64,000 nucleotides of DNA from contig NZ_ACFE01000004.1 of the NCBI RefSeq assembly GCF_000174015.1, positions 124,001 through 188,000 on the forward strand, given 5' to 3'. The translations under genes and the position numbers were made by a program. The DNA is from Lancefieldella rimae ATCC 49626. GTDB taxonomy: Bacteria; Actinomycetota; Coriobacteriia; Coriobacteriales; Atopobiaceae. Positions within the stretch are counted from its first letter, which is position 1. Every line of letters starts with the position of its first letter. Under the pieces are notes generated by a model. It was not told the origin of the DNA. It did no database searches and worked only from the letters and a program-made list of their open reading frames with translations. Of the stretch, positions 29,752 through 33,601 are shown in pieces.

Positions 29752-30663
29752 TCACGGCGTATGCACGGCTTTCAAAATGGCTTCATACACAACATCACGA
29801 TCAAGCGAGAAGGACTTGGAGAGCCGCTTTGCAAGCGTAGACTTACGTTCTCCCGCTTCAAGCCCTGCCTGGATGGCATCTGCAAGCGTTTGCTCTGCTG
29901 ACGGGTTCATGGATGCCTCGGAGGCCTTAGAGCCTTCTTCTGACTCATGCTCTTTGGGAGCGGAGACCACGATGACACATTCTCCCTTGAGGTGTTCCCG
30001 CGCCGCAACGGTTGCCGCCAACTCCGGTGCCAACCCACGTATCACTTCTTCGTGGACTTTCGTAAGCTCTCGCACAAGCGCAAGACGACGGCGCGGCATC
30101 ACCTCGGAGATGGTTGCAAGTGTTGCGGCAACCCTTCGAGGAGATTCATATATCACCAGCGTCGCCGGAATGGCTGCCAGTTGCACTAGGCGATCTTTCT
30201 GCGCGCCATGTTTGCGCGGCAAAAAACCTTCAAAAAAGAAATGTTCGCTCGCGAGCCCCGATGCCACAAGAGCGCACGTTACCGCAGACGGCCCCGGAAC
30301 AACCTCCGTTGCAAATCCCGCATCAAGCACGGCATCCACCAAGCGCTGTCCCGGATCAGAAACTCCCGGCATCCCCGCATCCGATACAAATGCAAGATGT
30401 TGACCTTGCGCAAGTCGTTTAAGTGCGGGAGCGATCTGAGCCTCAATAACGTTCTCGTCGCACCTCTGCAGAGAGGCATGTAAGCCAAATGCCGAGAGGA
30501 GCTTTGAAGTGACGCGTGTATCCTCACAAAAAATGACATCCGCAGTGGCAAGCGTATCGAGGACGCGTGGTGATGCGTCCGAAAGGTTTCCTATGGGTGT
30601 TCCTACCACCGAAAGCAGACCCGATTTTGCAGGTGAAACACGCGGTTGGTTTTCCGCTTCCAT
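29752..30663 (-). CDS. rsmI: 16S rRNA (cytidine-2'-O)-methyltransferase
   Basis: 303 residues. The tetrapyrrole-methylase fold is shown by VGTPIGNLSD near 20-29, FCEDTRVTSKLL, SDAGMPGVSDPG and VPGPSAV. It modifies the 2'-OH of C1402 of 16S rRNA, next to the P-site. A low-complexity Glu/Ser stretch (HESEEGSKASEASMNP) separates the core from a C-terminal helical domain. The ATG shares a base with the stop of the GH5-like gene (TGATG), so the two are co-translated, with GAGAGGA about 11 nt upstream. Downstream metG follows after 108 nt. Confidence 0.93.
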   Translation of the reverse strand: MEAENQPRVSPAKSGLLSVVGTPIGNLSDASPRVLDTLATADVIFCEDTRVTSKLLSAFGLHASLQRCDENVIEAQIAPALKRLAQGQHLAFVSDAGMPGVSDPGQRLVDAVLDAGFATEVVPGPSAVTCALVASGLASEHFFFEGFLPRKHGAQKDRLVQLAAIPATLVIYESPRRVAATLATISEVMPRRRLALVRELTKVHEEVIRGLAPELAATVAAREHLKGECVIVVSAPKEHESEEGSKASEASMNPSAEQTLADAIQAGLEAGERKSTLAKRLSKSFSLDRDVVYEAILKAVHTP

Positions 30664-31700
30664 CAGTTGAGCATTCCTCTCTCAAACGAAGCAAGAGCAA
30701 CGCGCGCGTCCCACCCTGCCAAAAACGCGCTCGTCTTCCAGGTCTGGAAAAACCAGGCAGGACATCCGCGATATGCGGCAAGCTGTCCGGAAGCATAAAT
30801 ACGCTCAAGGGCAATGCGACCCTCAGCGGTCATGGAGCCGTCCGGCGTGGGAAGCGAAGCCGACCACTTTCCCACCATCACCGGCAAATCTCCCGATGAA
30901 ACCTGAAGAAGATAAGAACGCTTTGCGTCTATCACTCTCTGAATACCTAAAGGGCCGGAACAGTCAACGGAAGAAGGTGTTTTGTCCAAGTGACAATCAA
31001 GCCATACATTTGTATAGGATTGTTGACTCATAAAACGCCGCCAGCCTGAAGGCCATCCCCCGTCGGGAAGAATAACCACCGGATCTTCTCCCGCAACCGT
31101 ACGGACAATGTTGTATGCGCGGCGATAATAGTTGCGCAAAGAGTGAGCCGGTACCCCGTCAATAACGCGCAGTCCCTGACGGATACGCGGTTGCACCTCA
31201 TCGGCAACTTCAATGCCAAAAAATCCCAAACGATGTGCATAACGTTGCGCAAGCTTTTTGATAATTTCAAGGCTCTTCTCGCAAGAAATGCGAGTACGGG
31301 GAGAACCTCCGGGAGTACTGTCTTGTCCGTCAGGAAGCCCCGGATTGACGGCAAGTACGAAGATGACGTGGAGCCCGATTTCCTCGGCCCACTCAAGCGC
31401 TCTGTCCACCATATCAATGCACGGTTGATATGGTGTGTTTTGAGGTTCAAAGACATACCACGGTATCGGCAAGCGCAACGCATTAAAGCCTCGCGCCGCA
31501 ATCCGAGAAAAATCTTCGGAGTGAATGAAAGAGGCGCGATGAGCACGCACAAGCTCTGCGTATTCATCCTTTCCAAGTTTGGCCGCCAACGACACCTCAT
31601 CAACCGTGGCAGTTCGTGCAAACGGTTCAGGAGTTACCCAAGGTTCCAACGTCAACCAACCCGTTAGGTTAACTCCCCGTAAGACCTTGGTGGCCGCCAT
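30663..31700 (-). CDS. Glycoside hydrolase family 5-like protein, probably catalytically altered
   Basis: 345 residues. The fold resembles fungal-type exo-beta-1,3-glucanases of GH5: RGVNLTGWLTLEPWVTP at the start, ALRLPIPWYVF, an acid/base Glu region IEVADEVQP (the usual N-E-P is D-E-V), and a later DCHLDK. The strand that normally ends in G-E-W-S, with the nucleophile Glu, reads MVGKWSAS, with Lys in place of Glu. It is therefore probably unable to cut by the retaining mechanism and may bind sugars instead, unless the base is a sequencing error. No signal peptide is seen, so it is cytoplasmic. ATG 31698-31700 follows AAAGGGG. It is coupled to rsmI. Confidence 0.8.
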   Translation of the reverse strand: MAATKVLRGVNLTGWLTLEPWVTPEPFARTATVDEVSLAAKLGKDEYAELVRAHRASFIHSEDFSRIAARGFNALRLPIPWYVFEPQNTPYQPCIDMVDRALEWAEEIGLHVIFVLAVNPGLPDGQDSTPGGSPRTRISCEKSLEIIKKLAQRYAHRLGFFGIEVADEVQPRIRQGLRVIDGVPAHSLRNYYRRAYNIVRTVAGEDPVVILPDGGWPSGWRRFMSQQSYTNVWLDCHLDKTPSSVDCSGPLGIQRVIDAKRSYLLQVSSGDLPVMVGKWSASLPTPDGSMTAEGRIALERIYASGQLAAYRGCPAWFFQTWKTSAFLAGWDARVALASFERGMLN

Positions 31701-31776
31701 TGCCGCCCCTTTCAGAATACGCATACACGTTACGTATACACGTAGCGCTTTTATAATCTAGTCTCAGTATACCCGG

Positions 31777-32199
31777 CTACTCGCGCGTATAGATGGCACA
31801 GTTAAGAGGCGTCTCATAAACTTCAATTTGCGAGACAGGCACACCTTGTGCGGCAAGTCGGTCAAAAAAGTATTTGGCAAGATTTTCCGCCGTCGTACGA
31901 AACGGAAGAATCGAAAGGGTAAAGCCCTCTTCATGAAGGCACTCGATGGTCTTTTCCATCAAAGACCCCTCTTCGACTAAAAACGTATGATCGAGTTCAT
32001 CGGTAAGCTCACGGAGCCTCTTTTTGAAAACGCCAAAATCCATGACCATGTCTTTCGTGGTTCCCTCGCTCCCAAGATAAGACTGTGAGATATATGCCAC
32101 CACGCGCCACCGATGGCCGTGCAGATTCTCGCACTTTCCATAATAGTCAGTCAGAAAATGCGAGGCATCAAACGAACTTTCAGTTTTTAAGCTATACAT
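31777..32199 (-). CDS. queD: 6-carboxytetrahydropterin synthase (QueD) family protein
   Basis: 140 residues from the ATG at 32197-32199; the ATG at 32215-32217 would add six. Zinc ligands are His14 (FDASHF), His27 and His29 (ENLHGHRW), with catalytic Cys23 in GKCENLHGH. MVMDFG and LDHTFL follow as in QueD. The enzyme makes 6-carboxytetrahydropterin for queuosine and related 7-deazaguanines; PTPS-type homologues act on folates, which the Cys motif makes less likely. No queC or queE is nearby. The start overlaps the end of ricT by 8 nt, so it is co-translated. A 76-nt gap with a possible promoter separates it from the GH5-like gene. Confidence 0.85.
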   Translation of the reverse strand: MYSLKTESSFDASHFLTDYYGKCENLHGHRWRVVAYISQSYLGSEGTTKDMVMDFGVFKKRLRELTDELDHTFLVEEGSLMEKTIECLHEEGFTLSILPFRTTAENLAKYFFDRLAAQGVPVSQIEVYETPLNCAIYTRE

Positions 32200-33601
32200 T
32201 GTTACTGTTTTCACCATGTGTCTTTTTACTTGTTTGATTTTTCCCATGATGCCGGCGGCGAGAAGAAGCATTTTGCTGTTCTGTGGCCGGCGCTTGAGCC
32301 TGCGACGTTGCATGAGAGCGCCGCGGACGACGTATTTGCTTGTCGTGCGGTGGTGTCTTCTGTGAAGTCTGCGGCTCTGCTTCACGCATGCCCGCACGGT
32401 CTCCCGGATGGCGTGTACGTTTTGTGCGCTGGGGAGTATTCTGAGTTGATGTCTTGGTCGTCTCAGGCAACCCCGCTTCCTGACGGTGATGGCGACGGCG
32501 ACGTGGCACATCAACGGGTATTTCAACAGGACTTACGTCTTTGGCATCTTTTGTTTCATTTTCATACGTTGGCGCCATGCGAGAAGGACGTACCCGATGA
32601 GTGCGCGGTACCTTAACAAACAGATCGGGATTTATCTCAGGCTCTTCTTCCTCAAGAACGCCATGCTCGCGATCAAGTTCGGCCAAAGCCATCTGCACAT
32701 CGGGAGATTCGAGTTTTTCAAGCACTTGTCGCGTTACGGTATCAGGGCGACACGCGCAGCCAAACTCTTCCGCTTTTTTCTTCGCGGCATCGGAGGCCGT
32801 CATATCCCCCAAGGGAATGCGTACCGTTTTGCCATTTTCCAGACGGATTACAACTTCCTCTTTCGGCGTGTTGTATTCAACAATTTTTCCGGTTCCAAGG
32901 GGAGTTTCAATGACGGCATTGCGCTTGGGAGCACGATTCTTAAAGTCCTTATATGCCTCAAATTCATAGCGCAAACAACACATGAGGCGTCCGCACGCTC
33001 CTGAGATTTTCGTGGAATTAAGAGGCAGGTCTTGCTCTTTTGCCATACGGATAGAAATAGGCTCAAACGAAAGGCCAAATCGGCGGCAGCAAAGCTCTTG
33101 TCCGCAATGACCATATCCGCCGATAACGGCCGCTACCTCACGCACGCCAATCTGTCTCATATCAATGCGCTGATGCAGCTCATGAGACAAGTCTCGTACC
33201 AGCTGGCGGAAGTCAACTCGCTCATCGGCCGAGAAGTAACACACGACCTTCTCGCCATCAAAGAGATATTCCGCTCCCACCGGCTTCATATCAAGATTTT
33301 CTTCAGCGGCAAAGCGGCAAAATATGGGGAAAGCGTCATCTCCCATCTGAGCAAGTTGTTCCGCGCGTTCAAGATCCTCAAGCGAGGCCACGCGGAGCAC
33401 CGGTTTAAGCTCGGCATCCCCAATGGTATCTGCGAGTTCGTCGTCCGTGACATCGCGAACATCATCGATAACGAGTCCAATCTCTTGTCCTCGTTCCGTC
33501 TGGCAAATAACGTGATCGCCCTCTTGCGCGCCTGAGTCTGACCAATCAAACCACAGGCCACGAGCGGCATATGAAAACTTTACCGGTACAACGGCGGGCA
33601 T
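32192..33601 (-). CDS. ricT: RicT/YaaT family PSP1 protein with basic C-terminal tail
   Basis: 469 residues. The PSP1 domain contains GYGHCGQELCCRRFG and GACGRLMCCLRYE, the cysteine clusters that bind iron-sulfur in the Bacillus Ric complex that controls RNase Y and development. From about residue 320 the protein changes into a Pro/Arg/His/Gln-rich, disordered tail (RRRRHHR, RTKRTRHPG, RRPRRS) of about 150 residues, not seen in Bacillus. RicF and RicA are not in the window. AAGGAGGCG precedes the ATG, and the start lies 22 nt inside holB, matching the tmk-holB-ricT order in Firmicutes. The tail might bind nucleic acid. Confidence 0.9.
   Translation of the reverse strand: MPAVVPVKFSYAARGLWFDWSDSGAQEGDHVICQTERGQEIGLVIDDVRDVTDDELADTIGDAELKPVLRVASLEDLERAEQLAQMGDDAFPIFCRFAAEENLDMKPVGAEYLFDGEKVVCYFSADERVDFRQLVRDLSHELHQRIDMRQIGVREVAAVIGGYGHCGQELCCRRFGLSFEPISIRMAKEQDLPLNSTKISGACGRLMCCLRYEFEAYKDFKNRAPKRNAVIETPLGTGKIVEYNTPKEEVVIRLENGKTVRIPLGDMTASDAAKKKAEEFGCACRPDTVTRQVLEKLESPDVQMALAELDREHGVLEEEEPEINPDLFVKVPRTHRVRPSRMAPTYENETKDAKDVSPVEIPVDVPRRRRHHRQEAGLPETTKTSTQNTPQRTKRTRHPGDRAGMREAEPQTSQKTPPHDKQIRRPRRSHATSQAQAPATEQQNASSRRRHHGKNQTSKKTHGENSNNV

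Follow-up and report, generated by a model that had tools for sequence, protein, structure and literature searches.

The gene at positions 30663..31700 on the minus strand of the window (the whole 64,000-nucleotide stretch of the Lancefieldella rimae genome analyzed here) appears to encode a pseudoglycosidase of the GH5 fold that would retain a pocket and act as a coupled partner of RsmI, the rRNA methyltransferase encoded directly downstream. This is the best reading of the locus, with a probability of about 0.6. It builds on the computed fold, the missing catalytic residues, the conservation of the gene and of the catalytic face of the barrel, the linkage to rsmI, and the close or overlapping reading frames of the two genes.

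The gene, its neighborhood and its distribution

The longest open reading frame (30663..31724, minus strand; 353 aa) is open throughout and reads ...LPVMVGKWSASLP... in translation. The ATG at 31700, the in-frame Met9 of this frame, has GAAAGGGG five bases upstream and is therefore the likelier start, so that translation probably begins at 31700 rather than at 31724 and yields a protein of 345 aa; the residue numbers used here are all counted from 31724. The stop-to-stop frame comprises 364 codons, and strand 1 of the modeled barrel begins at residue 15 of 353; there seems to be little room for a signal peptide, and the protein is probably cytoplasmic and stand-alone. Searching the NCBIfam profiles at E 0.1 assigned it to no family. 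Its TGA stop and the ATG of rsmI overlap by one base (TGATG); rsmI is the gene for 16S rRNA (cytidine-1402 2'-O)-methyltransferase (29752..30663, minus strand; TIGR00096, 219.7 bits against a cut-off of 167.9). Upstream, on the same strand, there is a queD-like gene with the longest frame at 31777..32526 (TIGR03367, 84.9 bits, just below the cut-off of 89.25); the profile match begins at residue 113, and the true start probably lies further inside this frame. The longest queD frame is overlapped by a gene of the RicT/YaaT family (32192..33601; NF041131, 264.5 bits) with a long, basic, low-complexity-looking tail.

The pairing with rsmI is general among the 183 distinct orthologues: in all 181 testable loci, the gene directly downstream, in the same orientation, is rsmI (the other two loci are too short). 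A possible rsmI start is found at most 15 nt from the stop in 172 of 179 cases, with an overlap of 1 nt in 68 and of 4 nt in 32 (100 of 179); the start was taken as the in-frame one nearest to the stop, which favors small gaps and underestimates some of them. On the other side, the nearest upstream gene among six tested is queD in 61 of the 183 loci, ricT in 23, and metG, on the opposite strand, in two; 84 loci have none of the six in the stretch examined and 13 are too short. A frozen housekeeping cluster is not enough as the sole cause of the pairing because the upstream neighbors vary, metG being on the opposite strand in two loci, while the rsmI pair persists; for four loci this was viewed in the list of open reading frames. 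The initial annotation had the gene as maintained and co-translated with rsmI; its maintenance and its overlap with the rsmI start are supported, and translation of the two may be coupled. No fusion with RsmI was seen among the orthologues, the longest of which has 376 aa. The mirror-tree comparison with RsmI gave a partial r of 0.41, against 0.16 for queD, a weak signal from 17 genomes kept of 35.

In the window's family, 133 of the 140 genomes contain a match, two of these (G153 and G162) only an enzyme-like one (E about 1e-38 and 3e-37), and 131 of the 140 contain an orthologue, four as fragments (G017, G099, G109, and G126); the seven genomes that lack a match are G013, G130, and five members of genus g31. 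A second family of the order (f10), presumably Coriobacteriaceae, has the orthologue in all of its 65 genomes, and none of the 20 other genomes of the same order, some of them incomplete, has a match at E 0.001. At E 1e-20, 23 of 396 genomes in a sample of the phylum match, all 23 from the two families. Forty-seven named relatives come from Atopobium, Olsenella, Tractidigestivibacter, Olegusella, 'bacterium OL-1', and uncultured assemblies labeled Atopobiaceae, Coriobacteriaceae, Olsenella, or actinobacterium; the nearest is that of Atopobium sp. oral taxon 199 (74% identity). One f10 genome (G164) has two orthologues, L113 (C124) and L214 (C19), which are 58% and 45% identical to the window protein, respectively; L113 probably entered this assembly as a contaminant derived from the window's family.

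In genus g31, the gene is missing at the queD-rsmI junction in all four genomes in which rsmI was found (L279, L280, L281, and L282); in the fifth, rsmI was not found. Here queD leads straight into rsmI, a natural absence of the gene that makes a useful untouched comparison. The RsmI tree places g31 among members of the window's family, with low support and with the family not recovered as one clade. In the eight outgroup loci that were read, rsmI is likewise present without the GH5-like gene, and RsmI therefore seems to be independent of it. In one outgroup genome (G046, C2), rsmI is seemingly split into two pieces in different frames (L277 and L278), which points to a frameshift or an assembly error.

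A GH5 barrel with a dismantled catalytic site

The affinity of the protein to GH5 is clear at the levels of both sequence and predicted structure. The Pfam profile PF00150 (GH5) matches it with 30.7 bits (cut-off 23.5), and the GH5 profile is matched by all 47 members of alignment A1 at E 0.001. The closest relatives in the PDB by phmmer are exo-beta-1,3-glucanases (8z2w, E 5.6e-32; 6zb9, E 4e-30). The AlphaFold2 model, built from an alignment of 47 sequences including that of the window (pLDDT 85.9, pTM 0.88), contains eight barrel strands (15-19, 82-87, 119-124, 168-172, 216-220, 240-245, 282-287, and 323-326), and together with the structure searches identifies the (beta/alpha)8 barrel of clan GH-A. 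Exo-beta-1,3-glucanases are also the first matches of the model in Foldseek (8z2w, E 1.1e-23) and in VIA-align (6zb8 and 6zb9, Z 38.0, 2.4-2.5 A over 326-327 residues); the structural matches to these enzymes have Z of 34 to 38 over 323-327 residues, at 25-31% identity. The whole-chain fold resembles those of the moose-rumen enzymes 6zb8 and 6zb9, Exg of Candida albicans (1cz1), and the Aspergillus oryzae enzyme 8z2w. The RGVNL-GWL-LE-W start, the strand-2 Arg, and the strand-6 His are common to the window protein and the exo-beta-1,3-glucanases, and 8z2w also has the TWKT motif of strand 8. Unlike these enzymes, the window protein has Lys in place of the nucleophile, Asp in place of Asn, and Ala in place of the strand-3 His, carries no signal peptide, and is encoded next to rsmI.

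The replacement of the nucleophile had already been noted for the locus: the initial annotation had read Lys in place of the nucleophile Glu in VMVGKWSAS. Lys286 (codon AAG, 30867..30869, minus strand) ends strand 282-287, the seventh of the eight in the model, where retaining GH5 glycosidases have the nucleophile Glu that the window protein lacks. In the phmmer alignments, VGKWS of the window pairs with VGEWT and VGEWC of exo-beta-1,3-glucanases; Lys286 stands opposite the Glu of VGEW in two of the three alignments shown, the third being with a crystallized mutant that has Gln there. The translation, the alignment, and the strand-7 location in the model all bear out the original reading, and placing the nucleophile elsewhere in the barrel, the other outcome envisaged for a structural alignment, finds support in neither the phmmer alignment nor the modeled strand 7. 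A one-base sequencing error, which the initial annotation wanted excluded, is ruled out as well: GKWS is found in 5 of 5 genomes of the window's genus, and Lys is conserved beyond it, in 75 of the 183 orthologues, with two codons (68 AAG and 6 AAA, the window's own AAG left out). The remaining orthologues have Glu (79), Ala (22), Ser (5), or Thr (2) at this position. These counts leave out two short rows (L110 and L249) and the orthologue fragments of G017, G099, and G109; they include L113 and one row without the protein end.

According to the initial annotation, the fold is otherwise intact and the acid/base Glu still in place, which is correct for Glu176 (codon 31197..31199, minus strand), located after strand 4 at the GH5 acid/base place in the model, and for the barrel itself. 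It fails for three other residues, all encoded on the minus strand: Asp175 (31200..31202) replaces the Asn before the acid/base, Ala125 (31350..31352) replaces the His at the end of strand 3, an active-site residue in the GH5 subfamily concerned, and Asp247 (30984..30986) replaces the strand-6 Tyr, which in Candida Exg contacts the nucleophile. Among the 183 orthologues, none retains the strand-3 His, 8 retain the Asn, and 52 retain the acid/base Glu; the group as a whole, with these residues gone from 183, 175, and 131 of its members, respectively, has therefore already departed from ordinary GH5 hydrolysis. Both catalytic Glu are found in 19 orthologues, among them L103 of Atopobium minutum, the nucleophile alone in 60, the acid/base alone in 33, and neither in 71, so that at least one is missing in 164 of 183; the complete combination of His, Asn, and both Glu never occurs. 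An acid, Asp or Glu, occupies position 175 in all 75 Lys sequences, and Asp is found there in 70 of 79 Glu-state ones. By contrast with the catalytic residues, Arg84 (183/183), Trp329 (182 of the 182 rows that have the residue), Glu27 (174/183), and His245 (165/183) are kept. In a GH5_18 enzyme, according to the account of its active site, Arg, Asn, His, and Trp residues surround the two catalytic Glu (PMC6160142). By their place in the barrel, these contact residues may be equated with those kept here.

Position 247 appears to have followed the fate of the nucleophile. Glu286 is paired with Tyr247 in 79 of 79 sequences, whereas Lys286 is paired with Asp247 in 46 of 75, with Tyr in 19, and with Phe in 10. 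The two positions thus remained linked up to the loss of Glu, after which 247 changed, often to an acid possibly facing the Lys. The invariant pairing suggests that the nucleophile still mattered in the Glu-state proteins and, together with the 19 orthologues that have both Glu, implies that the ancestor was possibly an enzyme whose specificity was unusual.

The order of the losses was examined on a quick tree of 84 orthologue representatives and 13 paralogue enzymes, computed with the six active-site columns left out and with SH-aLRT support only. One clade of 48 rows (SH-aLRT 98) contains no Glu286 (0/48), whereas outside it 35 of 36 rows keep Glu, the exception being L237, which lost it separately. 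The tree shows Glu as the older state at position 286, lost mainly once, in the 48-row clade. The 79 orthologues with Glu, an outcome that the initial annotation had named as refuting its reading, accordingly do not refute it. The simplest history would be a single change from Glu to Lys followed by several changes from Lys to Ala, Ser, or Thr. The tree requires a minimum of 8 changes at the nucleophile position and of 30 at that of the acid/base. Lys286 is one step in a longer dismantling, the loss of the nucleophile not being the key event. In the orthologue L026, which sits on a very long branch, Thr takes the place of the nucleophile and the acid/base pair reads Ser-Asn.

Some relatives encode, in addition, separate intact exo-glucanase-like paralogues with a RGVNLGNWLVLE-type start. 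Fifteen distinct GH5 paralogues were identified in the same two families (L039-L041, L248, L250-L259, and L262). Their barrel is homologous to that of the window protein (about 25-36% identity) but, unlike the latter, all 15 keep the catalytic residues, including the strand-3 His, the Asn, and both Glu; compared with them, the window protein also has Asp247 for the strand-6 Tyr. In none of the 15 loci was rsmI found nearby, within the stretch of the locus examined.

Selection and candidate functions

The gene is under purifying selection, as estimated from sequence pairs with identity of at least 72% and dS of 0.1-1.5, which are not independent of each other. The median dN/dS is 0.18 over all 1089 pairs kept, 0.24 for Lys-Lys pairs (484 pairs, 65 sequences), 0.15 for Glu-Glu pairs (574 pairs, 64 sequences), and 0.12 for Ala-Ala pairs (14 pairs); the higher value for Lys than for Glu pairs is compatible with some relaxation. 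Among the paralogue enzymes, whose pairs were filtered less strictly, values range from 0.19 to 0.70. Silent sites are saturated in the window's own comparisons; the closest pair of its genus (L004 and L005) has dN of 0.020 and dS of 0.60. In a comparison confined to the orthologue group, with segments we defined from the model strands, conservation is stronger on the catalytic side of the barrel (1.19 bits) than on its other face (1.70 bits, p 0.001) or in the helices (1.64 bits, p 0.006). Such conservation of the barrel mouth is partly expected in any GH5-derived barrel and could reflect an inherited scaffold; what matters is its persistence after the catalytic residues went, the five former catalytic columns lying between the 45th and 72nd percentile of variability. 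There are also 22 columns that are at least 95% conserved in the group and shared with at most 3 of the 15 paralogue enzymes; the group-specific conserved residues include Arg182, Arg197, Asn198, Thr299, and Gly302, none of which lies in a barrel strand.

Selection on the gene, the lack of a signal peptide, the pocket residues, and the overlap with rsmI favor a non-hydrolytic ligand-binding protein in a unit with RsmI. Under this scenario, a GH5 exo-beta-glucanase-like ancestor would have become a cytoplasmic, stand-alone (beta/alpha)8 barrel and lost glycoside hydrolysis, while the barrel mouth, with Arg84, Glu27, His245, Trp329, and the WFFQTWKT stretch that follows strand 8, was kept as a putative pocket, in which a sugar-like ligand is probably bound but not cleaved. 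The protein would be made first in a unit of two overlapping genes, its translation likely coupled to that of RsmI, and its most likely role would be that of a ligand-responsive or structural partner, through a presumed physical or regulatory link. The parts of this scenario differ in strength. The firmest is that the Lys clade is non-hydrolytic, which is very probable: judging by its residues, the Lys protein cannot carry out the known mechanism of retaining GH5 hydrolases. Ligand binding can be proposed with moderate confidence, at roughly even odds, and any functional connection with RsmI that goes further than their joint expression is doubtful. Of the options given in the initial annotation, a non-cutting protein is likely, whereas altered specificity is unlikely in the Lys clade, where there is no nucleophile; in the 19 orthologues with both Glu, specificity may be altered.

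Several other explanations deserve consideration. The protein could serve RsmI, or the ribosome, purely as a protein partner or chaperone, with the barrel as a scaffold and the pocket irrelevant. The invariable adjacency of rsmI and the close or overlapping frames, kept while the upstream neighbors change, are compatible with such a role, as are the weak excess of rate co-variation with RsmI and the group-conserved residues outside the barrel strands (which need not be exposed on the surface), but conservation is concentrated at the barrel mouth and not in the helices, and g31 and the outgroup genomes keep rsmI without the gene, which makes this explanation rather unlikely. A different chemistry at the remodeled site formed by Lys286, Glu176, Asp175, and Asp247, for example, a Lys-dependent reaction on a reducing sugar, with Glu-state relatives acting on activated glycosides, would account for the mouth being the most conserved part of the barrel and for the partly rebuilt appearance of the site, where Asp247 often accompanies Lys286 and an acid is always found at 175 in the Lys sequences, although Asp at 175 is common in the Glu state, too. 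It is nevertheless improbable: Lys286 is replaced by Ala, Ser, or Thr in the same clade (29 of 183 overall, with L237 outside) while the gene stays, and therefore Lys is not essential to the group-wide function, and no site examined varies more than the acid/base column (72nd percentile).

A more specific version of the link to RsmI, a sugar-sensing pseudoglycosidase in which a ligand in the former active site modulates RsmI and thereby the 2'-O-methylation of C1402 in 16S rRNA, is quite improbable as well; if true, the two genes would form a carbohydrate-to-ribosome control unit linking carbohydrate status to ribosome modification. Finally, the loss of catalytic residues, the higher dN/dS of the Lys pairs, and the absence of the gene in g31 could indicate a decaying relic, just as the single-base difference could come from an error in the sequence. 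Both variants are largely refuted, by the occurrence of Lys in many orthologues with two codons, the absence of inner stops among the matches listed, the purifying selection, and the 22 group-conserved columns, and are very improbable.

Relation to other non-catalytic GH5 proteins

Pseudo-GH5 proteins are a known kind. In the passages concerned, Aspeborg et al. 2012 (PMC3526467) list several GH5 groups without catalytic machinery that are thought to have new functions, namely GH5_30, a fungal group among the mannan-related subfamilies, the Xanthomonas subgroup of GH5_1, a subgroup near GH5_8, and Rsi24C-GH5, for which interaction with crystalline cellulose and conveyance of a signal are reported; GH5_9 is given there as fungal-only at that time. 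These groups share with the window protein the loss of catalytic residues, but, going by their descriptions, on which the separation of the window's group from all four is based, the Xanthomonas and GH5_8-like proteins are modular or lipoproteins whereas the window protein is stand-alone and without a signal peptide, and Rsi24C-GH5 is an extracellular sensor domain whereas the window protein is near-universal in two bacterial families and encoded next to rsmI. No earlier description of an rsmI-linked GH5 group was found in the open-licence literature, and a term search of the main text of PMC3526467 gave no occurrence of Atopobium, Collinsella, or Coriobacter.

Across two bacterial families, the successive stages in the decay of a pseudoenzyme can be followed here in living intermediates that have both catalytic Glu, one, or none, and the gene is kept beside one rRNA methyltransferase gene despite this decay. 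Profile-based annotation would label the protein a cellulase, as Pfam does, so that carbohydrate degradation would be overcounted in these bacteria. Should its link with RsmI prove functional, the protein would offer a direct entry to the possible metabolic tuning of rRNA modification.
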